From a virus, in the IMG/VR virus record IMGVR_UViG_3300048597_000276, positions 1 to 53,909 of that record: a DNA stretch of 53,909 nucleotides, one strand, 5' to 3'. A program made the position numbers and the translations under genes. Of the stretch, positions 15,515 to 47,665 are shown in pieces. Every line of letters starts with the position of its first letter. Position 1 is the first letter of the stretch. The notes beneath the pieces were generated by a model. That model was not told the origin of the DNA. It saw nothing but the letters and a program-made list of their open reading frames with translations, and did no database searches.

Positions 15515-18500
15515 TCACCAGTGCTCGTGGTTGACGGGGGCGACCGCTGCCTTGAGGCGCGCGCGCACGCGGCGCTCGACATGGTCGATCGAGGCGTAGA
15601 ACTGAGCCTGTGGGCTGGCACCGCCGATGCCCTCGCGCATGATCGCGATCACCACGTCGGCGGCGATCTGCGAGCCGAGGCAGCGGCAGGCGTCGTGGTA
15701 GAAGTCGACCGCCTGGGTGGCCATCATGCCGTCGTCGTCGGCGAAGAACTGGTCCCAGGTCCGGATCACGTCCTGGCACAGCTGCATGGCCGGACCGATG
15801 CCGGCGGCACAGCCATGCTCGCCCGGGTGGCGGCCGGCCTGGACGCAGATCTCCTTGGCCCGGATCATGCTGTCGCGCATGACGATCATCCGAGAGAGCT
15901 TGCGCTTGGGGTAGGCCGCGAGGTCCCGCGCCAGCATCGGCAGGTTGCGGGCGTACCGCTCGCCGCGGCGGCTGTTGTCGACGTAGCCGACATGGGCCAG
16001 GGCCACGTCGGGCAGGAGCGTGGCGCAGCCCGTGCCCTCGTTGATCCCGATCTCGGCGTGCTCGTGCAACATGCCCCAGAACCGCATGGGCTTGCCGCTC
16101 TTGCGCTCCGGGCGCCGGCGGAACAGCCGGCCGGGGATGTCGGGCGGCCAGGCCGCGTCGACCGCGAAGTGGCACTGGCGGATCGCGAAGGTGTGCACCG
16201 GGCTCTCGCGCAGGTAGCGCCAGAGCAGGGCCGGCGAGATCAGCTTCTCGTCGGCGTCGATCATGAGGATCCAGTCGCCGCGGCACCGCTCGAGTGCCGC
16301 GTTGCGCGGCGTCTCGAAACCGACCTCGAGCGGGCTGGCGTGCTCGAACAGCACCGCCCCGTACTGCAGCGCGATCCGGCGCGCCTCCTCACCCATGCCG
16401 CAGTCGGCGATGACGATCTCGTCGACGATCGGTGCGATCGACCGCAGGCACCAGTGCAGGTTGTCGGCGGCATCCCGGCCGCCGACCATCATGCACGCCG
16501 AGAGGGTCTGCCGGGGCCGCTGCTGGGTCAGCTTGCGGTCCCAGTCCAGCTCGCCGAGCGGCGCCCCGTCGGCGAAGTAGGTGCAGTAGGTGTTGCCCAG
16601 CGGCAGGCCGGTGACCGGGCACCACTGGTCGGCGACCTGATCGAGGATGAAGCCCGGCTTCTTCCTCAGCAGGTCCTCGAAGTCGGGAACCTCGAACTCA
16701 CGGATGTGCTGGCGCGGGTGGGTCTTGGGCTGCTGCGTCTCCCAGGGCCCGAACGGCGTCGAGATCAGGATCAGCGCGCCCTTGGCCGCCACCGCCTCGA
16801 GCCCCTGGATCACGCCCGTCGGGTCGAAGACGTGCTCGAGCACCTCGGCCATGACGATCACGTCGAAGTGGCCGCCGACCAGCTTGGCCGGCAGGAGCTG
16901 CCCCTCGTGGCCCCGGTAGAAGGCGATCCGGCTCGGCTCGTCGCAGAACTTGTCGGCCAGCCCGCGCGCGCGGGCGATCTCATCCGAGCTCGCGTCGATG
17001 CCGACCACGGTCGAGCCGGGGAAAGAGTTGGCGAGGACGATGGCGCACTCGCCCTGCGAGCACCCCCAGTCCAGGATCCGCAGCGGCTTGCCGGCCTTCG
17101 CCAGCGGCGACCGCTCCGCGATCATGTCGCGCATGCGGGCATAGCGGCTGAAGGGCGCTTCCTTGAACCGCGACGGTGGGGCCTGCAGCAAGCCCTCGGT
17201 GATGTGGCCGTTGTTCGGCCCGACCTTGGTGTCGTACAGCTCGGCCAGCGCCTCGCGCGACAGCGCATGGGCATACCGGGCCCGCAGCTCCTCGGCGAAC
17301 CGGTCCATGCGCGGGTCGGGGCCTTCCGCGAACCGCCAGTGATCGCGGTCGCGCTCGTACTGGGCCACGACCCGGAACGCGGCCTGGATGTCCTGGCGCT
17401 GGTAGAAGTGGCGTGCGAGCGCGAACGGGTCCGAGCAGGCCCGCCTGACGATGGCCTCGACCTCGGCCTCGACCTGCTGTGCCACACCGCCCCAGCTGAG
17501 CTCCGCGGCACGGTGGCGCCCCATGACGGACAGGTGCCGGGCATAGTCCCGGTCCTCGAGCACGCGCAGCGTGGCCGTGACCAGGTCCTCGACCACCTGC
17601 GGAGCGCCGGCGTGCGGGGCACCGGCCGTCGGCACCAGGATCCCGGCGTCGCCCACCGTCTCGGGCAGAGCACCGCGGTCGGTGGAGATCCAGGGCAGGC
17701 CGCACGCCATCGCCTCCATGGCGGTGATGCAGCTCGTCTCGTTGAAGCCGGGGTCGATGGGGGCCGGCGTCGGATAGACCGCGGCCGAGCCCGAGGCCAT
17801 CAGCCGGTAGAGCTCGGCCTTGCCGAGCGGCTCGTGCCAGACGACGCGATCGCCGAAGCCGGCCGCGAGCTGGCGCAGGTGGCGGTAGTAGGGCTCGATC
17901 GCCGGGTTCGGCATGTCGTAGGCGGCGACGTGGAGCTGCACGCCCGGGCGCGCCTGGAGCAGCCGTGGCAGGATCCCGCCCAGCAGCACCTCCAGCCCGC
18001 GCTCGGGGCGGTTGGTGTAGATCAGCCGGTCGGGCACGCGCTTGACGTCGCGGGTGGCCTTCTCGATCACCTCGAGGTCGATGCCGTTGCGGCTGACCAG
18101 GAAGTCCTCGGCCGCGAGGTCGGTGCAGAGCTGGAGGTACTGGTCGCGCTGGAACTCGCTGACCGTCATGATGCGGTCGATGCCGTGCACCGTCGCCATC
18201 AGCTCCTGGGTACGCCGGGCCTGCATCAGGTCGTGGACCCACAGGATCGAGGCCTTGGCGTGGGTGCGGACCGCGAAGTAGCGCGGGTTGCGCTGGACCA
18301 GGAGCAGGTCGCAGGCGAGCGTGCCGGCCATGCTCTGGAAGGCGTCGAGCGGCAGGAGCATCACGCCCCGCCAGTGTTCGGGCTTCTCGACGTTGGCGAA
18401 AGCGATGACGCGGTGGCCGCGCTCGACGAGCGCCCGGGCCAGCTGCAGGCCGGCAGTCTCGCTGCCGCCCAGGGAAACCGCGAGGGGATCGGGCATCTGC

Positions 18501-18541
18501 AAGGCCAAGCCTGGGATGACGAACCTCACGTCGAGTTTCAT
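15515..18541 (-). CDS. GT4 glycosyltransferase - methyltransferase - GT2 glycosyltransferase fusion
   Basis: 1008 residues with three enzyme domains. Residues 1-365 are a GT-B (GT4-like) glycosyltransferase: LGGSETAG near 24-31, and the acceptor/donor motif FNETSCITAMEAMACGLP with the E-x7-E pair Glu268/Glu276. Residues 430-665 are a class I SAM-dependent methyltransferase: LDWGCSQGE at 490-498, acidic Asp516, MAEVLEHVF at 564-572. Residues 680-870 are a GT-A (GT2) glycosyltransferase: a Rossmann start ACMMVGG, then the IDADEK metal site at 761-766. A helical tail follows. All key motifs look intact. The gene sits between the capsid gene and neck genes with a terminator and promoter-like region in front, as a late-expressed moron would. 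Likely role: building or attaching a methylated glycan on virion or host surface (inference). Confidence 0.85.
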   Translation of the reverse strand: MKLDVRFVIPGLALQMPDPLAVSLGGSETAGLQLARALVERGHRVIAFANVEKPEHWRGVMLLPLDAFQSMAGTLACDLLLVQRNPRYFAVRTHAKASILWVHDLMQARRTQELMATVHGIDRIMTVSEFQRDQYLQLCTDLAAEDFLVSRNGIDLEVIEKATRDVKRVPDRLIYTNRPERGLEVLLGGILPRLLQARPGVQLHVAAYDMPNPAIEPYYRHLRQLAAGFGDRVVWHEPLGKAELYRLMASGSAAVYPTPAPIDPGFNETSCITAMEAMACGLPWISTDRGALPETVGDAGILVPTAGAPHAGAPQVVEDLVTATLRVLEDRDYARHLSVMGRHRAAELSWGGVAQQVEAEVEAIVRRACSDPFALARHFYQRQDIQAAFRVVAQYERDRDHWRFAEGPDPRMDRFAEELRARYAHALSREALAELYDTKVGPNNGHITEGLLQAPPSRFKEAPFSRYARMRDMIAERSPLAKAGKPLRILDWGCSQGECAIVLANSFPGSTVVGIDASSDEIARARGLADKFCDEPSRIAFYRGHEGQLLPAKLVGGHFDVIVMAEVLEHVFDPTGVIQGLEAVAAKGALILISTPFGPWETQQPKTHPRQHIREFEVPDFEDLLRKKPGFILDQVADQWCPVTGLPLGNTYCTYFADGAPLGELDWDRKLTQQRPRQTLSACMMVGGRDAADNLHWCLRSIAPIVDEIVIADCGMGEEARRIALQYGAVLFEHASPLEVGFETPRNAALERCRGDWILMIDADEKLISPALLWRYLRESPVHTFAIRQCHFAVDAAWPPDIPGRLFRRRPERKSGKPMRFWGMLHEHAEIGINEGTGCATLLPDVALAHVGYVDNSRRGERYARNLPMLARDLAAYPKRKLSRMIVMRDSMIRAKEICVQAGRHPGEHGCAAGIGPAMQLCQDVIRTWDQFFADDDGMMATQAVDFYHDACRCLGSQIAADVVIAIMREGIGGASPQAQFYASIDHVERRVRARLKAAVAPVNHEHW

Positions 18542-30490: not shown

Positions 30491-30815
30491 GCAGATGACG
30501 GCAAAGAAGGTCCAGCCGCGTCCCGACGGGGATACCTTCGAGCGCACGAAGGCGCTGAGCGCCAAGCTGCACGAATTCATGGTCGACTGGTTCGCGGAGC
30601 AGGGGCTCGGCGCCGAGATCCCCGAGCGCGACCGCGCCAAGCTGACCGACGCGCAGATCGCGGCGACCTTCGCCCTGCTGAGTGAGGTCGGCTATCTGTT
30701 CGGCACCATGGGGTTCTCGATGGACGTCGTGCGGAAGATAGCCCTGCCGGTGATCGCGCACGCGCACGCCGAAGTGACCCGCCGCGCCGAGGCCTTGGAG
30801 GCGTCCGATGGATAG
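30483..30815 (+). CDS. Hypothetical protein
   Basis: 110 residues from the ATG at 30483, overlapping the previous stop. Acidic/basic mix with a hydrophobic C-terminal helix (LLSEVGYLFGTMGFSMDVVR). It overlaps the ParB-like gene by 8 bases. No family recognised; close coupling suggests a partner of that protein. Confidence 0.6.
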   Translation: MAEQMTAKKVQPRPDGDTFERTKALSAKLHEFMVDWFAEQGLGAEIPERDRAKLTDAQIAATFALLSEVGYLFGTMGFSMDVVRKIALPVIAHAHAEVTRRAEALEASDG

Positions 30816-32586
30816 CCCGAACACGCTGGATCCGCTGGTCCGCTCGGTGCCGTTCCGCACGCTCGAGGCCGGCCCGAACCCGCGCCAGCACGACAAGGCC
30901 TACCTCAAGACCCTGGCCGCCAGCATCAAGGCGCTGGGCCTCTTGCAGCCGCTCGGCGTCGTGCCGATCGACGGCGGCAAGCGGGGCCAGGTCCGCTACG
31001 GCAACGGCCGGCTCGCGGCCCTGAAGCTGCTCAAGACCAAGCCCGAGACGCCGATCCCGATCGTGCTGGTGCGCGACGACGACGAGGCCATGGTCCAGGC
31101 CGCGGCCCTGGCCGAGAACCGCGTGCGCGCACCGATGAACCCGCTGGAGGAGTGCGATGCGTTCTGCGCCCTGATCGACCAGGGCAAGAGCGTGGACGAG
31201 GTCGCGGCGTGGTTCGCAGTCACCGACCGGTTCGTGCGCCAGCGCCTCCAGCTCCGCCAGCTGGCGCCCGCGTTCCGGTCGCTCGTCGTCGCCGGCGAGA
31301 TCACGCTCGACCTCGCGGGCTCGCTGGCCATCCTCCCGGCCGAGCGGCAGGCCAAGGTGCTCGCCGACGCGAAGCAGCGCGGCTGGAAGCCGGGCGGCAA
31401 GGGCGACTACAGCAGCTTCCCGGACTGGCTGATCCACAACGCGATCCGTGATCGCCAAGTCGAGGCGAAGCACGCTCTGTTCGACGTCGAGGCCGCGGGC
31501 ATCAGGATCGACCGCGACCTGTTCGACGACAAGGACGAGGGCAAGGTCCTGGCCGAGGACGTGGAGCGGTTCCTGGCGCTCCAGACCGAGGCCGCGAAGG
31601 CGAAGGGGCCGGCCGTGGCCGAGAAGAACGGCTGTGCCGCCTGGATATGGGACGACGACATCGAAGATCAGCTGTGGACGCTGGGCTACCGCTACGTCCC
31701 CAGGGACAAGGACGGCAACCTGAAGATCGAGCCCGGGCACGAGCTCGTCGCCGTCGGCGATCTTCTGTCGACCGGCGAGCCGCGATGGCTGCTCCAGCAG
31801 CGGCCGATCGGCGGCAAGAAGCCCAAGCCTGACGATGATGATGACGAGGATCGCGAGCGCGATCCGCTCCGCGACTACGCCGAGCGCCACGCCGACCGGG
31901 ACAAGCCCGAGGACCAGGAGAAGGTCGGCCAGTCGCTGGAGAACGCGATCCGCGAGGTCCAGGCGCTGATCGCCGCCGGGCAGCTGCTCGCGGATCCGAC
32001 GCTGGCGCTGCGGCTGGCGATCGTCCAGGTCATCAAGGCCGGTCGGTACCGGTACGCCGCGCACCTGGGCAGCATCGTGCCTGGGCACCCGAGCGTGGCC
32101 GCGGAATCGGTGCGGCAGGCGTTCAAGGTGCTGTCCGACCTGGGCGGGTCGAAGCTGTGCCAGGGCGCTGCGGGCGACGCGAAGGCCTACGGGTCCGAGG
32201 CGCGGAACCTGCACTCGGACCTGATCCCCGCCCGGCTGTACGAGGGCGTGATGGCGGCCGACGAGAGCCAGCTGCCGCAACTGCTCGCGGCCGCGATGGT
32301 GCTGGCGATGGACCCGTGCGGCAGCCTCGTGCAGGCCGTGCGCAAGCACAGCACCGTGCCCGAGGGCAAGTTCTACTGCCTGGGCGAGTACGAGCTGGGC
32401 AAGCTGACCAAGGACCAGCTGCTCGAGCAGGCCAAGGCGGCGGGGCTCGAGGGTGTGGACGCCAAGACCAGAAAGGAGGTCGTCAAGGCGATCATGGCGA
32501 AGGGTCTGGCGGCGCGCGACGCCGGTAGCGAGGCGCCGATCCTGCCGATCCTCGCCAAGGCCAGGAACCGCACCGGGGACTGGTGA
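30808..32586 (+). CDS. Large ParB-like protein
   Basis: 592 residues. Residues ~15-110 are a ParB/Srx-type domain: NPRQHDKAYLKTLAASIKAL, GLLQPLGVVP, RYGNGRLAALKLLKT, then AALAENRVRAPMNPLEECDA. A helix-turn-helix region follows (KSVDEVAAWFAVTDRFVRQR). The remaining ~400 residues are specific, with a Asp-rich segment (DDDDDEDRERD) near 350 and a helical end. Proteins of this layout are common on plasmids and phages, where they bind DNA; some have nuclease or NTPase activity. Whether it partitions DNA, cuts it or regulates is not shown here. Confidence 0.8.
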   Translation: MDSPNTLDPLVRSVPFRTLEAGPNPRQHDKAYLKTLAASIKALGLLQPLGVVPIDGGKRGQVRYGNGRLAALKLLKTKPETPIPIVLVRDDDEAMVQAAALAENRVRAPMNPLEECDAFCALIDQGKSVDEVAAWFAVTDRFVRQRLQLRQLAPAFRSLVVAGEITLDLAGSLAILPAERQAKVLADAKQRGWKPGGKGDYSSFPDWLIHNAIRDRQVEAKHALFDVEAAGIRIDRDLFDDKDEGKVLAEDVERFLALQTEAAKAKGPAVAEKNGCAAWIWDDDIEDQLWTLGYRYVPRDKDGNLKIEPGHELVAVGDLLSTGEPRWLLQQRPIGGKKPKPDDDDDEDRERDPLRDYAERHADRDKPEDQEKVGQSLENAIREVQALIAAGQLLADPTLALRLAIVQVIKAGRYRYAAHLGSIVPGHPSVAAESVRQAFKVLSDLGGSKLCQGAAGDAKAYGSEARNLHSDLIPARLYEGVMAADESQLPQLLAAAMVLAMDPCGSLVQAVRKHSTVPEGKFYCLGEYELGKLTKDQLLEQAKAAGLEGVDAKTRKEVVKAIMAKGLAARDAGSEAPILPILAKARNRTGDW

Positions 32587-40293: not shown

Positions 40294-40577
40294 CCGCCCG
40301 TCGCCGGCCGCCGGTGCCCGAACCTGAGCCCCTGCCCTACGTGGTCGAGGTCCAGGGCCGCGAGATCCGCCACGCGAACCTGTCGCTGCAGATGTACCTC
40401 GACGGGCGCGAGGGTGCTGGCTGCAACTGGCGGCCGCTGCGCTACGACGAGGCCGAGGCCATGGTGGTGCTGGTCGGGCTGGTCCACCCTGCCGGCCTGC
40501 GCGAGCAGTACGGGTTCTTCCCGATCGCCCCGGTCGGGAACAGCGCGGCCACATTCCAGCTGAAGGCGGGAGCGTGA
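40290..40577 (+). CDS. Hypothetical protein
   Basis: 95 residues; Pro-rich start, then YVVEVQGREIRHANLSLQMY and DEAEAMVVLVGLVHPAGLRE. Alpha/beta, no Cys cluster. TGATG joins it to the broken nuclease-like gene. Confidence 0.55.
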   Translation: MTARRRPPVPEPEPLPYVVEVQGREIRHANLSLQMYLDGREGAGCNWRPLRYDEAEAMVVLVGLVHPAGLREQYGFFPIAPVGNSAATFQLKAGA

Positions 40578-41172
40578 TGGGCGCAGTCGTTAGCATCGAG
40601 GCGATCCCCACGACGTACAGGGGCACCAGCTTTCGCAGCCGGGCCGAAGCGCGATGGGCGGTGTGGTTTGACCTGATCGGCATGCAGTGGGTCTACGAGC
40701 CCGAAACTTTCGTTGTTGCATCAGGTGAGGACTACCGCGTTCTATACTGCCCTGACTTCCTTATCAAAGGCCCGTCCCCTTCTACTTCGAGGTCAAGCCA
40801 GACGATTTCGTGTCTGCTCCACTTGGTACCTACTACCCCGAACAGTGCAAGTTGGATGCGTTCGTCGACGCATCTGGCCAGGATCTGGTGGTCGCTCTTG
40901 GTCCGCCGCGAAGCGGGCACGCCCTGATCGTGTTTGAAGCGGGGGTGGAAGTCGGACAAAGGAGCGGATGGCGCGAGGTACGTTGGCAATTCACGTCTTG
41001 CCGCGGATGCGGCGGGCTAACCATAGATCCCGACGAGCCCGGCTTCGTCGATAGCGGCCGTCTTGTAATCATGCTGCACGAGGAATCCCACAAGTGGTGC
41101 GGCGAGAAGTTCGGCGGATTGGAGTACGAGCCCGAGTTGCTCGATCGCGCCGCCGGTTGGCGCTTCTGGTGA
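40577..41172 (+). pseudogene. PD-(D/E)XK nuclease-like gene split by a single-base frameshift
   Basis: The first frame (40577 onward) gives TYRGTSFRSRAEARWAVWFD, an N-terminal Glu motif, then YCPDFLIKGP. A one-base deletion relative to the family pattern lies near 40770-40785. In the next frame the protein continues PFYFEVKPDDFVSAPLGTYY and runs to TGA at 41170-41172, with Cys-containing WQFTSCRGCGGLTIDPDE. Read through, PD ... E-x-K forms a PD-(D/E)XK active site, and the break falls between the two halves. Base composition is less GC-rich than the neighbours, suggesting a recent arrival. A sequencing error or recoding cannot be excluded. Confidence 0.7.
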
Positions 41173-41518: not shown

Positions 41519-42436
41519 ATGACCGAGATCCGCACGCTGCCCCTGGGCCAAGTCCACCGCAATGTCGACCAGCCCCGGACCGACTTCCCGAAGGACCATA
41601 TCGAGGCGCTGGCCGCTTCGATCCGCGAGCGCGGGCTGCTCCAGCCGATCACTGTCCGCCGCCTCGCCGACGACCGGTTCGAGATCGTGGCCGGTGAGTG
41701 CCGGTGGCGCGCCCACCAGCTCCTCGGCGCCGCGACGATCGATGCCCGCATCGTCGACATGGACGAGAGCGAGCGGGACCTGAACGCGATCGTCGAGAAC
41801 CTCCAGCGCCGCGATGTCCACCCGCTCGAGGAAGCCCGCGCCTACCAGCGGATGCTCGACAAGGGCTGGGCGGTCGACGCCCTGGCGAAGTCGGTCGGCA
41901 CCACCGAGAACCGGGTGCTTGAGCGGATCGGGCTGCTCAAGATGCGGCCCGAGTACCAGTCGCTGTTCCAGACCGGGCAGATCGACCGGAACATGGCCCG
42001 CGAGCTCGCGAGCCTGCCCCCGCACGCCCAGGACGCCCTGTTCCAGCTGATCCGCAAGGGCGAGTTCGCCAACTCCAACGGCCGCCAGTGCGATGGCTCC
42101 ACCCGGCTCCGCGAGGTCGCGAACCAGATGCGCCACGACCTGGCGCAAGGCTCGATGTTCGACCTGCCGCCCGAGCCCACCGAGGAGGAGAAGTCGAAGG
42201 CCGCAGCCATCCAGCGGAAGATCGACCAGCTCTGCGGGATGCTGAACCAGGGGTTTGACGACGGCGACATCGCGATCACCCGCAAGGTCGATCCGAACCT
42301 CGCCGCCACCTACGCCGACAAGCTGGCCCTGATCGGGCGGCATGTCGCCATGCTGGAGCGGGCCCTCCGCACCAGCGCCACCGTGGCACAGGCGCAGCTC
42401 GCGCTGGTGTCCGCAACCGAGAAGGCTGACGTTTGA
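41519..42436 (+). CDS. ParB/Spo0J-family protein
   Basis: 305 residues. ParB N-terminal domain: VDQPRTDFPKDHIEALAASI, GLLQPITVRR, the box AGECRWRAH, and IVENLQRRDVHPLEEARAY. Then a helix-turn-helix (WAVDALAKSVGTTENRVLER). The C-terminal ~130 residues are helical and family-specific. No ParA is seen beside it, so classical partition is doubtful; ParB-like proteins in phages may regulate transcription or act as DNA-bound CTP switches. Stop overlaps the next ATG. Confidence 0.85.
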   Translation: MTEIRTLPLGQVHRNVDQPRTDFPKDHIEALAASIRERGLLQPITVRRLADDRFEIVAGECRWRAHQLLGAATIDARIVDMDESERDLNAIVENLQRRDVHPLEEARAYQRMLDKGWAVDALAKSVGTTENRVLERIGLLKMRPEYQSLFQTGQIDRNMARELASLPPHAQDALFQLIRKGEFANSNGRQCDGSTRLREVANQMRHDLAQGSMFDLPPEPTEEEKSKAAAIQRKIDQLCGMLNQGFDDGDIAITRKVDPNLAATYADKLALIGRHVAMLERALRTSATVAQAQLALVSATEKADV

Positions 42437-43062
42437 TGGTGATGCCAAGGACGAAGCACGGGCTCTCCGCACTGGGGGTCCTGTCCGCCCTGCAGAAGTT
42501 CATCCGCCGCGGCATGGAGCGCGAGGCCATGCAGTGTGCGATCGAGCTGATGCACACGTCGAAGAACTACCACTCCATGGTCTGCAAGCGCCTCGAGGTG
42601 ATCTGCCACGAGGATATCGGCCTAGCCAACCCGATGGCGATCCCGTTCGTCCACGCCTCGATGGCCCAGGCCCGCGAATGGTACGAGCCGAACCCCGAGA
42701 AGCTCGGCAAGTCGCGCATGGCCGTGGGCAACGCGATCCGGCTGATGTGCCGGGGGCCGAAGTCCCGCGAGGGGGATCACTTCGCGGCGGCGCACGGCTG
42801 GGCCTCGATCCTCGAGGGGGCCAAGCCCGAGCTGCCCGATTGGATCTTCGACCAGCACACGTCGCAGGGCCGCAAGCAGGGCCGCGGGCTCGACTACTTC
42901 CGCGAGGTGTCGACGCAGCTCGTGCCGGACCCCGGGCCGGATCCGTATGAGGACGAGGCCTACCGGCTGTGGGCCCTGAAGAACGCCCGGGGAGCCGGCG
43001 GGGAGGGCGAGGCCGAGGAGATCGACGACGAAGGGCCGATGACGAAGCCCAGGCTGTTCTAG
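42436..43062 (+). CDS. Stand-alone RarA/MgsA C-terminal-like protein
   Basis: 208 residues. SALQKFIRRGMEREAMQCAI, RLEVICHEDIGLANPMAIPF and later GWASILEGAKPELPDWIFDQ correspond to the C-terminal helical domain of RarA-type recombination factors (SALQKSIRRGD ... IASEDIGLADP). There is no Walker A/B, so the ATPase half is absent. RarA acts at stalled replication forks as a tetramer through this region, so the phage protein might cap, recruit or block host RarA or clamp loader (inference). It is translationally coupled to the ParB-like gene. Confidence 0.7.
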   Translation: MVMPRTKHGLSALGVLSALQKFIRRGMEREAMQCAIELMHTSKNYHSMVCKRLEVICHEDIGLANPMAIPFVHASMAQAREWYEPNPEKLGKSRMAVGNAIRLMCRGPKSREGDHFAAAHGWASILEGAKPELPDWIFDQHTSQGRKQGRGLDYFREVSTQLVPDPGPDPYEDEAYRLWALKNARGAGGEGEAEEIDDEGPMTKPRLF

Positions 43063-43070
43063 GCTGATAC

Positions 43071-43105
43071 GGGGCTCACCAGGGCATGCCGCTCCGGTGA
43101 GCCCC
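43071..43105. terminator. Perfect 10-bp hairpin between convergent genes
   Basis: GGGGCTCACC (43071-43080) pairs with GGTGAGCCCC (43096-43105), loop 15 bases. It stands between the stop of the RarA-like gene and the stop of the minus-strand glycosyltransferase gene. U-tracts are weak on both sides. Confidence 0.6.
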
Positions 43106-43116
43106 CAACCACCACC

Positions 43117-43911
43117 CTACTTCTGGGCCCTGGGGTTCGACCGGTCGACCTTGATCGACATGGTGTCGATCTTGCCCCTGGTATCGAGGGCCGTGCGTTT
43201 GAGGGAAACGTGGGCGCCCCAGGTCTCCTTGAGGAGCCGGGTCGTTGCCACCCACTTGTCGGTCGTGATGAGGCCGACGTTGCCGCCCTGGCCGCCGAAG
43301 ATCATCCCGCAGTCGAAGTAGAAGCGGCTGTCCATGTAGCCGAACCGGTCCTCGAGCAGGGTCCGGATCGACAGGTCGATCGCGTTCCGGCCTGCGAACC
43401 TGGGGTCCATCTTCCGCCGGCGGGCCGGGCCCATGATGCCGAAGACGTTGGACAGGATCGGCTTCACCGTGGCCGGCTTCATGCCGATGTCGAACAGGGT
43501 CGAGTTGTTGGTGCGGGAGAAGCAGAACGTCGATGAGCCGACGTCGTGGGCCGCGCGGGCGGCGTTCTCGATGATCTGCAGGATGTCGGCCGGATCGGTG
43601 ATCCGCCCGCCGCGGCCGCTGCGCCGCCAGCCGGTCATCACGCTGACGTGGTGAAAGTCGTCGTCGACGAACACCAGGATCTCGTTGGCGACGTTGTCCA
43701 TGATCCAGTTGCAGACCACGGCGAACCCGTCCATCGGCGGATGGAGGAGCAGCTGGTCGGAAGGCACGAACGGGGCGTAGGCGGCCAGCTCCCGCTCGTC
43801 GATGCAGACCATGGCCGTGGGCAGCAGCTCGCGAATCCGCGGCATGTTGTGCGGTCGCCGGCGGGAGGGCACGACGATGCCGATGTCCAGCTCCGGGGCG
43901 TAGTCGGTCAC
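43117..43911 (-). CDS. GT-A glycosyltransferase, TET-associated (TAGT)-like
   Basis: 264 residues from GTG 43911, overlapping the ParB-like stop (GTGA). N-terminus LDIGIVVPSRRRPHNMPRIR, then AMVCIDERELAAYAPFVPSD, NWIMDNVANEILVFVDDDFH with the Asp triad metal site near residue 73-75, and SGRGGRITDPADILQIIENA. PSR-x-RP followed by an E..Y segment and a DDD loop is the layout of TET/JBP-associated glycosyltransferases, which add sugars to oxidised pyrimidines in DNA. No TET/JBP oxygenase or hydroxymethyl-pyrimidine enzyme is in the window, so the substrate is open. GT-A fold is fairly sure; the TAGT assignment is moderate. Confidence 0.65.
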   Translation of the reverse strand: MTDYAPELDIGIVVPSRRRPHNMPRIRELLPTAMVCIDERELAAYAPFVPSDQLLLHPPMDGFAVVCNWIMDNVANEILVFVDDDFHHVSVMTGWRRSGRGGRITDPADILQIIENAARAAHDVGSSTFCFSRTNNSTLFDIGMKPATVKPILSNVFGIMGPARRRKMDPRFAGRNAIDLSIRTLLEDRFGYMDSRFYFDCGMIFGGQGGNVGLITTDKWVATTRLLKETWGAHVSLKRTALDTRGKIDTMSIKVDRSNPRAQK

Positions 43912-44597
43912 GGCTTGGCGCCCGCCTCGGGCTCGCCCAGCGCCTCGAGCAGGACCTCGGCGCGGATGCCGCGGCAGGTACCGAGGTTGCCCTTCCTGCG
44001 GACCGGCTTGAGGCCCAGGCGATCGCAGAGCGTGTTCCACTCCCGCGTCGTGGTGGCGAGCACGACGAGGTAGTCGTAGTGCTCGTGCGGGGCCAGCTCC
44101 ATGCCTGGCACGAAGTGCTCGGTCTTTTCCTTGGGTGCGGCCTCGATCTCGTCGACCAGCTTGTCCATGGCCTTGGCCAGGTCGGCGTGCAGCTTCCGCA
44201 GGTCGGCATAGTCGCCCATGTCGACCGAGCTGAGCAGGCTGGCCAGGGCCTCGGCGTCGGGGATGGCGAGGTCGCCCAGGGGATCGAAGGTGGTGAGCAC
44301 CTTGTCGGCCTCCTCGTCGTTGAGGTCGACGATCAGCACCGGGATCTCGGCGTTGGGATCGTTCTCCGCGCGCATGTGGCCGTCGAGGAGCTCCAGCTCG
44401 CCGGTGGGCAGCTCGCGGGCCAGCACGGCGCCGACGAAGCCGACGTCGTCGAGGATCGCGCGGAGCACGGACTTCTGCCCTTCGGGGTGGCGGCGCCAGT
44501 TCTTGGCGTTGGGCTTGAGGTCGCCGGCGCGGACGCGGCGCAGCTCCTTCACCCGGTCCCGGATTGCCGGCTTGGCCGCCGTCTTCTTCGCTGCCAT
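43908..44597 (-). CDS. ParB-like protein paired with the TAGT-like glycosyltransferase
   Basis: 229 residues. A basic start (AAKKTAAKP), then a ParB-type domain: DLKPNAKNWRRHPEGQKSVL, LELLDGHMRAE and IPVLIVDLNDEEADKVL. The C-terminal ~60 residues ELAPHEHYDYLVVLATTTRE ... GIRAEVLLEALGE form a second domain that I recall from phage ParB-like proteins near DNA-modification genes. It precedes the glycosyltransferase with a 4-base overlap, so the two are made together. A DNA-targeting or sugar-related role is inferred. Confidence 0.7.
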   Translation of the reverse strand: MAAKKTAAKPAIRDRVKELRRVRAGDLKPNAKNWRRHPEGQKSVLRAILDDVGFVGAVLARELPTGELELLDGHMRAENDPNAEIPVLIVDLNDEEADKVLTTFDPLGDLAIPDAEALASLLSSVDMGDYADLRKLHADLAKAMDKLVDEIEAAPKEKTEHFVPGMELAPHEHYDYLVVLATTTREWNTLCDRLGLKPVRRKGNLGTCRGIRAEVLLEALGEPEAGAKP

Positions 44598-44842
44598 GGA
44601 TGAGCTCCGCTAGACTGATGGTTTGCGTGTAGCCCACCCGGCCGCGACGATCCAGGGCGCCGACGAGCCTACCATTACCCGGGCGGCTGCAGACCTTGAG
44701 GCCACAGGCAAAACCTATGCTGGCAGCTCGCATAGGTATGCAGGCCCATTACTGGCGGTACGCACTTTTCCATTTGCATCCTCCTGCTAAACTGCTAGTA
44801 TAGCAGATGTAAGCAAGAACACCTTCCACAAGGTCGACGACG
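44598..44842. promoter_or_regulatory. Divergent control region with 8-bp inverted repeat
   Basis: Minus-strand CAGTCT (44612-44617) followed by AGCGGAGC is a possible -10 and leader for the ParB-like gene; its -35 is poor. ACCTATGC (44713-44720) and GCATAGGT (44730-44737) are a perfect inverted repeat with a 9-base centre, a likely operator. A repeat-family promoter for the plus strand follows at 44774. Confidence 0.5.
44774..44806 (+). promoter_or_regulatory. Early promoter/operator, repeat-family copy 6
   Basis: TTGCAT (44774-44779), 16-base spacer, TAGTAT (44796-44801) with extended TGC and an intact CTGCTAGTATAGCAG palindrome. Leader: GTAAGCAAGAACACCTTCCACAAGG before ATG 44843, given here in two parts, GTAAGCAAGAAC and ACCTTCCACAAGG. 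Confidence 0.75.
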
Positions 44843-46917: not shown

Positions 46918-47219
46918 TCTACCGTCCCGAGGCTGAGGCAATCGAGAAGGGGTGCCCGATGGGCATGTCATCTCACGTGGGGGCCTACGTCCGCTGCGTT
47001 GGCTCCAAGTGCATGGCTTGGCAGTGGGCGCCCGGTCTGCCTCGCACGCGGTTCGATGGGCCGCGCGACATGCTCACCGGCGAGCCGCCGCGCCCCGATG
47101 CCGTGCCGGCCAGCTGGACCTGGGAGTTCGACGAGGAGGAAGGCCGGGGCTACTGGCTCGAGCCCGAGGCCGAGGCGCAGAAGCGATGGCGCGGCCGTTG
47201 CGGGATGGTGCCCCGGTGA
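46914..47219 (+). CDS. Small Cys-containing protein of a common phage type
   Basis: 101 residues. CPMG...VGAYVRCVGSKCMAWQWA provides Cys14, Cys28 and Cys33; the C-x-G-S-x-C-M-A-W pattern recurs in small phage proteins of unknown function and may bind metal. Acidic C-terminus. GTGA joins it to the methyltransferase gene. Confidence 0.6.
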   Translation: MIYRPEAEAIEKGCPMGMSSHVGAYVRCVGSKCMAWQWAPGLPRTRFDGPRDMLTGEPPRPDAVPASWTWEFDEEEGRGYWLEPEAEAQKRWRGRCGMVPR

Positions 47220-47665
47220 CCCGGGGCTTTGCCGCGGTGGCACTCTGGCGGCCGAAGTGCGACGGCAACGTGGGCGGGGCGATTCGCGCCGCCTCGTGCT
47301 TCAACGCGCGGCTGGTGGTCGTGGGCTCGCCGCGGCCGACGATGCGGGGCCGGATCGAGCGGACCGATCCGCGCTCCTCGCACCGGCACATGCCTGTGCT
47401 GTTCGAGCAGGACGTGCTCAAGCCCGTGCCGCACGAGGCGAAGGTGATCGCGGTCGAGATCCTCGCCGGCGCCCGCCCGCTGCCGGAGTTCGAGCATCCC
47501 GAGGTCGGGTACTACCTGTTCGGACCCGAGGACGGGTCGCTGCCGGCCGAGCTGTGCAGCGTCGCCGACATGCGGGTGGCGATCCCGACCGTCGGGTGCC
47601 TGAACCTCGCGATGGCGGTCAACGTCGTCCTCTACGACCGGGTCGCGAAGCGGGGGCTGCTGTGA
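47216..47665 (+). CDS. SPOUT RNA methyltransferase, TrmH/SpoU-like
   Basis: 149 residues from GTG 47216. Motif 1: GNVGGAIRAASCFNA with Asn18 and Arg24. Motif 2: YLFGPEDGSLP at 100-110. Motif 3: IPTVGCLNLAMAVNVVLYD at 123-141. These three form the knotted SAM site of TrmH/SpoU 2'-O-ribose methyltransferases. It has no extra RNA-binding domain and is at the short end for the family, like TrmL. It could modify host or phage tRNA during infection. Coupled by GTGA overlaps to genes on both sides. Confidence 0.8.
   Translation: MTRGFAAVALWRPKCDGNVGGAIRAASCFNARLVVVGSPRPTMRGRIERTDPRSSHRHMPVLFEQDVLKPVPHEAKVIAVEILAGARPLPEFEHPEVGYYLFGPEDGSLPAELCSVADMRVAIPTVGCLNLAMAVNVVLYDRVAKRGLL

Follow-up and report, generated by a model that had tools for sequence, protein, structure and literature searches.

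A ParB-like protein and a TAGT-like glycosyltransferase form a putative DNA-glycosylation cassette in a tailed-phage record

The window analyzed here, which is a whole IMG/VR virus record (53,909 nt, without terminal repeats; genes beyond its ends may be missing), carries on its minus strand a gene for a ParB-like protein that overlaps the gene of a TAGT-like glycosyltransferase (GT) directly downstream. We consider it probable, judging from the sequences, that this pair constitutes a ParB-guided cassette for post-replicative glycosylation of phage DNA, directed against host nucleases. In this reading, the ParB-like protein would bring or position the GT on the phage DNA, probably as a nucleotide-dependent subunit for DNA binding or loading, and the GT would glycosylate a base of the already replicated DNA with a sugar drawn from a nucleotide-sugar donor. 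The sugar on the phage genome would shield the DNA from host nucleases, and in relatives with extra genes it may be further processed or sulfated. A glycosylated phage DNA serving as a defence had already been proposed in the initial annotation, and a role in DNA modification remains the best reading of the pair, with DNA as the presumed acceptor and protection as the presumed benefit.

The window has the gene content of a tailed phage: between approximately 0.8 and 28.6 kb the minus strand encodes terminase, portal, head and tail proteins, and an early region (approximately 28.8–53.7 kb) is, the cassette apart, encoded on the plus strand. The minus-strand gene pair previously noticed inside this early array is real and comprises the ParB-like gene (43908..44597; 229 aa, ATG start) and the GT gene (43117..43911; 264 aa, GTG start). 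The stop codon of the former and the start codon of the latter share a 4-bp overlap, GTGA (43908..43911, minus strand), which likely reflects translational coupling; the same −3 offset between the two genes was observed in loci L007, L185, L186, L188, L190, L196, L199 and L202. The G+C content at codon positions 1, 2 and 3 was 0.74, 0.41 and 0.95 for the ParB-like gene and 0.59, 0.45 and 0.95 for the GT gene. Since these values resemble those of the neighbouring genes, and since both ORFs are conserved in 22 other viral contigs, they were regarded as real genes. Longer plus-strand ORFs that overlap the cassette were discarded as high-GC artefacts.

The cassette is flanked by two intergenic elements, both of which had been pointed out before. 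Between the convergent genes, a hairpin (43071..43105; arms 43071–43085 and 43091–43105) was borne out, with −30.9 kcal/mol and z = −4.1 against shuffled sequences; it lacks a T-run and is a possible bidirectional terminator. At the opposite end, the divergent intergenic region (44598..44842) does contain short imperfect inverted repeats (44774–44793 and 44797–44816), but the operator role ascribed to it is unproven, and a search for a sigma-70-type promoter in this gap found none.

The convergent neighbour of the GT gene encodes an MgsA_C-domain protein (42433..43062, plus strand; Pfam, 2.9e-8). A canonical ParB protein with ParB_N and HTH_ParB domains (41519..42436, plus strand; Pfam, 3.7e-25 and 2.8e-13) is a further member of this conserved block and also lies beside the cassette in L007, L187, L194 and L196. 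Among the relatives of the pair, defined as the 23 viral loci with this type of GT retrieved by alignment search, the MgsA_C gene was found downstream of the GT gene and on the opposite strand in 21. The retention of this convergent arrangement indicates an old conserved block and rules out a recent insertion of the cassette, contrary to the view that it is an inserted module. Besides the canonical ParB, a second long protein with ParB_N and HTH_ParB domains (592 aa) is encoded in the window at 30808–32586 (plus strand).

Profile and fold comparisons assign the window GT to the TAGT group, within which it is divergent. Against the Pfam TAGT family (PF20691), it matched at 2e-4 with 21.7–22.2 bits, where the curated cut-off is 27.5 bits; among its relatives, L009 (31.0 bits) and L010 (27.6) pass this cut-off and L007 (27.1) just misses it. 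The TAGT profile search suggested in the initial annotation thus places two relatives, but not the window GT alone, above the family threshold. A match to the PHROG family of beta-glucosyl-HMC-alpha-glucosyltransferase was also obtained (1e-4). When the GT family was aligned profile to profile with the canonical TAGTs (hhalign), an E value of 6.7e-6 and a probability of 85% were obtained over 185 columns. Further, a family profile built from 21 members, the specificity of which was checked with reversed decoys, matched 46 of 81 canonical TAGTs at E ≤ 1e-3, while none of the reversed sequences matched at E ≤ 0.1. The same profile matched the TET-linked TAGT P12024L_27 (2.5e-6) and the type of GT present in L011–L013 (1e-9 to 2.5e-11). 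In Foldseek searches of a viral library (BFVD), many proteins named TAGT appeared among the matches, and the nearest named viral models were TAGTs. In line with the earlier proposal of a TAGT relationship, hhalign, the family profile and the BFVD folds indicate that the protein is homologous to canonical TAGTs over most of its length. Because the window GT lies below the curated cut-off and lacks a TET linkage, we refer to it as TAGT-like.

In Foldseek comparisons with PDB structures, the window GT falls among GT-A enzymes, including the surface-glycan glycosyltransferases WrtF and TarP. A DDD motif (residues 83–85; 43657..43665, minus strand), which at least 95% of the aligned family members retain, likely represents the nucleotide-sugar/metal-binding DxD of a GT-A enzyme. 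Both this motif and the fold matches would be compatible with a GT-A fold with DxD, with an AlphaFold model (mean pLDDT 62) that is confident in the N-terminal half only and poor in the C-terminal half. The family-conserved DDD, R175/D179, LEDR and GG motifs are all intact, from which it appears that the window GT is probably active. In the GT tree it forms a long branch without supported placement, and no relatives of this type were found in named bacterial genomes or cultured phages. Likewise, no useful sequence relatives of the GT, the ParB-like or the sulfotransferase-like proteins (see below) were found in the PDB.

The partner protein consists of a ParB/Srx-type N-terminal domain with a DGHxR motif (approximately residues 12–126; 44220..44564, minus strand), delimited in alignments A2 and A4 and by profile comparison, and a C-terminal domain (approximately residues 165–222; 43932..44105, minus strand; alignment A4), which is kept in ParB-like proteins paired with this type of GT. 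In PHROG, the 229-aa protein matched ParB-like proteins (9e-8) and a ParB-containing DNA methyltransferase family (3e-9). Neither Pfam ParB_N nor HTH_ParB matched it at E ≤ 1, and an assignment as a canonical partition ParB was rejected on these grounds. Its predicted structure is of low confidence (pLDDT 60). The N-terminal domain is clearly homologous to that of the ParB proteins encoded upstream of TAGTs (hhalign, 8e-29). The C-terminal domain matched the C-terminal domain of those TAGT-linked proteins weakly (E = 0.012), a value at which homology between the two types of ParB partner is not claimed. The ParB-like partner is typical of such genes, as had been noted, but the likeness of its C-terminal domain to that of the TAGT-linked proteins is weak.

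A link to DNA modification emerges from the company that these ParB-like proteins keep. The ParB-like domain, which lacks the HTH of canonical ParB, is widespread. Among 86 loci drawn from the best viral matches, it forms part of a larger enzyme in 40, in most cases together with an N6/N4 methyltransferase; this tally is approximate because the wrong frame was chosen at a few loci, e.g., L008. Free-standing relatives adjoin GTs of three TAGT-type groups (TAGT match, 7.5e-43), Mom-family proteins (PF25680, 3e-51 and 1e-39) or C5 methyltransferases (C5 DNA methylase, 2e-59), and others are neighbours of an ATPase-acetyltransferase or a QueC-like PP-loop protein. Viewed from the side of the canonical viral TAGTs, the upstream same-strand gene belonged to one ParB-like cluster in 65 of 77 loci, again an approximate tally for the same reason; 15 of the 33 representatives of this cluster match Pfam ParB_N, and the remainder align with those 15. 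As for the GT type studied here, the ParB-like gene lies directly upstream of the modifying enzyme in the window, with the 4-bp overlap, and is kept in all 22 relatives for which upstream DNA is available.

These partnerships bear on an alternative in which the ParB-like protein would serve as a weapon with nuclease or NTPase activity, comparable to Osa or GmrS, while the target of the GT during host takeover would be RNA, nucleotides or some other small molecule. ParB-like domains with NTPase and DNase activity have been described, and a ParB-methylase of Bacillus cereus nicks DNA (PMC5512222), activities that by analogy would also fit a DNA-engaging role of the ParB-like subunit. However, this ParB-like subgroup occurs overwhelmingly with enzymes of DNA modification, and the TAGT relatives act on DNA, so that we regard such a weapon as very improbable.

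Some features of these neighbourhoods were observed in passing. In the TAGT-linked ParB proteins (L101–L174, alignment A6), a C-terminal domain with the pattern EWxGMPEF...VHF...KTKxIWxP marks the neighbours of canonical TAGTs, and in several of these loci this domain is a separate ORF of 85–93 aa. The same ParB-like domain also occurs beside a QueC-like PP-loop protein (L005) and, as recognized by eye, a radical-SAM-like protein (L006), which are possible further DNA-modification chemistries.

TAGTs owe their name to a link with TET/JBP enzymes, which form the hydroxylated acceptor. In another alternative, the window GT would be an ordinary TAGT whose acceptor, hmC or hmU, comes from a TET/JBP enzyme or a hydroxymethylase; the gene for this enzyme would lie in another part of the genome, or the acceptor would be made by a family that is not recognised, and the ParB-like protein would be a bystander. 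There are precedents for such arrangements: a TAGT lies beside TET/JBP in Nonlabens phage P12024L, and Vibrio phages henriette 12B8 and Kuja each encode a TAGT together with a thymidylate-synthase-family gene; moreover, all IMG/VR contigs may be fragments. The search for these enzymes across the record that had been recommended was carried out. In the window, a possibly incomplete record, TET/JBP (PF12851) gave no match even at E ≤ 10, while the P12024L TET used as a positive control was detected at 2.8e-29. Similarly, no thymidylate-synthase-family hydroxymethylase (PF00303) was found in the window or in its relatives, with the same caveat of incompleteness, while the family was detected in the two Vibrio phages, which served as controls. 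No C5-methyltransferase gene was found in the window either. The remark that no oxygenase or base-hydroxylating enzyme is in view is supported across the whole record for the TET/JBP and hydroxymethylase families.

Both families were also absent from 11 records including the window, from 16 further relatives of the window GT and from all 30 contigs of a canonical TAGT set, most of which are ParB-linked. C5 methyltransferases were found in three GT relatives only. Given that both families are missing from relatives of up to 73 kb, it is less likely that the enzyme merely lies outside the window, as had been suggested. With regard to the bystander role, this is unlikely because ParB is the commonest neighbour. 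Taken together, an ordinary TAGT is an unlikely reading, albeit one with some weight. On the other hand, the finding of no enzyme for a hydroxylated acceptor base in the window or in most relatives also counts against the ParB-guided cassette preferred here. Although fragmentary records could each miss a gene, the uniform absence suggests another route: the acceptor may be made by an enzyme that is not recognised, or the sugar may be added straight to a canonical base, in the manner of Mom and the methyltransferases.

Genes adjoining the pair in the relatives provide hints about the sugar. In 16 loci, the GT and MgsA_C genes are separated by a sulfotransferase-like gene, which belongs to either of two types. 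SulB proteins show KTGG and RHP-W--SRW motifs, and Pfam Sulfotransfer_2 recognises four of six members, with the best match (1.2e-4) exceeding the cut-off; SulA proteins show an LPNSGSTW motif, and three of six members match Sulfotransfer_3 weakly (best 0.007). Other genes located after the GT gene in some relatives encode a UDP-galactopyranose mutase (PF03275, 4e-62) or a UDP-sugar epimerase/decarboxylase (PF01370, 2e-44), and L198 encodes an APS kinase fused to a cytidylyltransferase-like domain (PF01583, 9e-14). Overall, at least one sugar-nucleotide or sulfotransferase-type gene followed the GT gene in 19 of 23 relatives (approximately 16 of 20 without near-copies). The same queries matched none of 81 loci in which ParB has a different partner, such as a methyltransferase or Mom, whereas among the canonical TAGT loci they matched 6 of 79. 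Four relatives have no sulfotransferase, mutase, UDP-sugar or APS-kinase gene, and no homologues of these were found in the window, which contains the core pair only. Hence, the sugar in many relatives may be of the galactofuranose or xylose type, further processed or sulfated, and the presence of sugar-making and sulfate-adding genes beside the pair hints at a DNA modification chemistry not described before. No report of a sulfated sugar on DNA was found in searches of an open-access library, and the prediction of such a sugar from the sulfotransferase, mutase and APS-kinase genes of the closest relatives is testable but unproven.

UDP-galactopyranose mutase and sulfotransferases are also found in surface-glycan pathways, which counts against the DNA reading. 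Together with the epimerase/decarboxylase and APS-kinase genes of the relatives, also known from surface polysaccharides, and with WrtF and TarP among the fold matches, they would suit a cassette that modifies a glycan of the host surface (lipopolysaccharide or capsule) or of the phage particle instead of DNA. However, the nearest viral models and profiles of the GT are TAGTs, the ParB-like partner is elsewhere paired with DNA methyltransferases and Mom, and no typical seroconversion membrane genes were present beside the GT among the neighbours listed, which makes a surface-glycan role improbable.

Two observations on the distribution of these genes were also made. In L198 (8759–11363), the UDP-galactopyranose mutase, sulfotransferase-like and APS kinase/cytidylyltransferase-like genes form a run directly after the ParB-like/GT pair. 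Genes of the UDP-sugar epimerase/decarboxylase type occur near canonical TAGTs in viral contigs L140, L141, L151, L168 and L171.

The proposed DNA-glycosylation cassette resembles several known systems in part. In phage T6, TAGT adds a second glucose onto glucosylated hmC in DNA (PMC13216743, PMC13390438). The window GT is like TAGT (PF20691) and the T2-T6 beta-glucosyl-HMC-alpha-glucosyltransferase with regard to GT-A-type fold matches, size, profile-level homology and shared motifs (a conserved N-terminal motif, DDD, GR..D..(L/I)R and GGN), but it lies below the family cut-off, has a ParB-like partner, and no TET/JBP, hydroxymethylase-family or alpha/beta-GT partner was found; that is, the predicted enzyme is similar to that of T6 in outline while the genetic setting is different. 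The TET-TAGT-methyltransferase cluster of Nonlabens phage P12024L likewise places a TAGT-type GT within a run of DNA-modification genes, but there PF12851 adjoins the GT. In phage ParB-methyltransferase and ParB-Mom pairs, the same ParB-like N-terminal domain either immediately precedes the modifying enzyme or forms one protein with it, whereas in the window this enzyme is a glycosyltransferase and the C-terminal domain of the ParB-like protein differs. Finally, phage-encoded nucleotide-sugar enzymes also supply DNA glycosylation in the pentose-cytosine modification of Shewanella phage Thanatos (PMC12838424). Thanatos encodes a deoxycytidylate hydroxymethyltransferase/thymidylate-synthase, whereas no such gene was found in the window or in the relatives.

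A survey from 2026 counted 288 phage genomes out of 753 in which a TAGT homologue is solitary, unaccompanied by an alpha- or beta-glucosyltransferase, and did not settle its role (PMC13216743). The consistent pairing of TAGT-type enzymes of viral contigs with a ParB-like protein is a concrete lead on these solitary TAGTs, and the occurrence of the ParB-like protein with TAGTs, methyltransferases and Mom suggests a general adaptor for phage DNA modification. Phage TET/TAGT systems were reportedly first predicted in an earlier study, and any novelty of the ParB neighbours is claimed with that reservation. As a more speculative extension, which we put forward tentatively, ParB-linked TAGT-type systems might represent a distinct form of DNA hypermodification, in which a ParB-like clamp or NTPase would direct a sugar to a canonical, non-pre-hydroxylated base in finished DNA. 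In many relatives, phage-encoded enzymes would provide donors of the UDP-galactofuranose or UDP-xylose type, and a dedicated sulfotransferase would then yield sulfated glycosyl-DNA.

Elsewhere in the window, a protein of 1008 aa that combines a GT4-type glycosyltransferase, a methyltransferase and a GT2-type domain is encoded between the major head protein and tail genes (15515–18541, minus strand). The early region also contains a small protein of 149 aa with an SpoU-type RNA methylase domain (47216–47665, plus strand), and two overlapping plus-strand ORFs at 40574–41172 (40574–40927 and 40810–41172) that may be a single gene split by a frameshift or a sequencing error.
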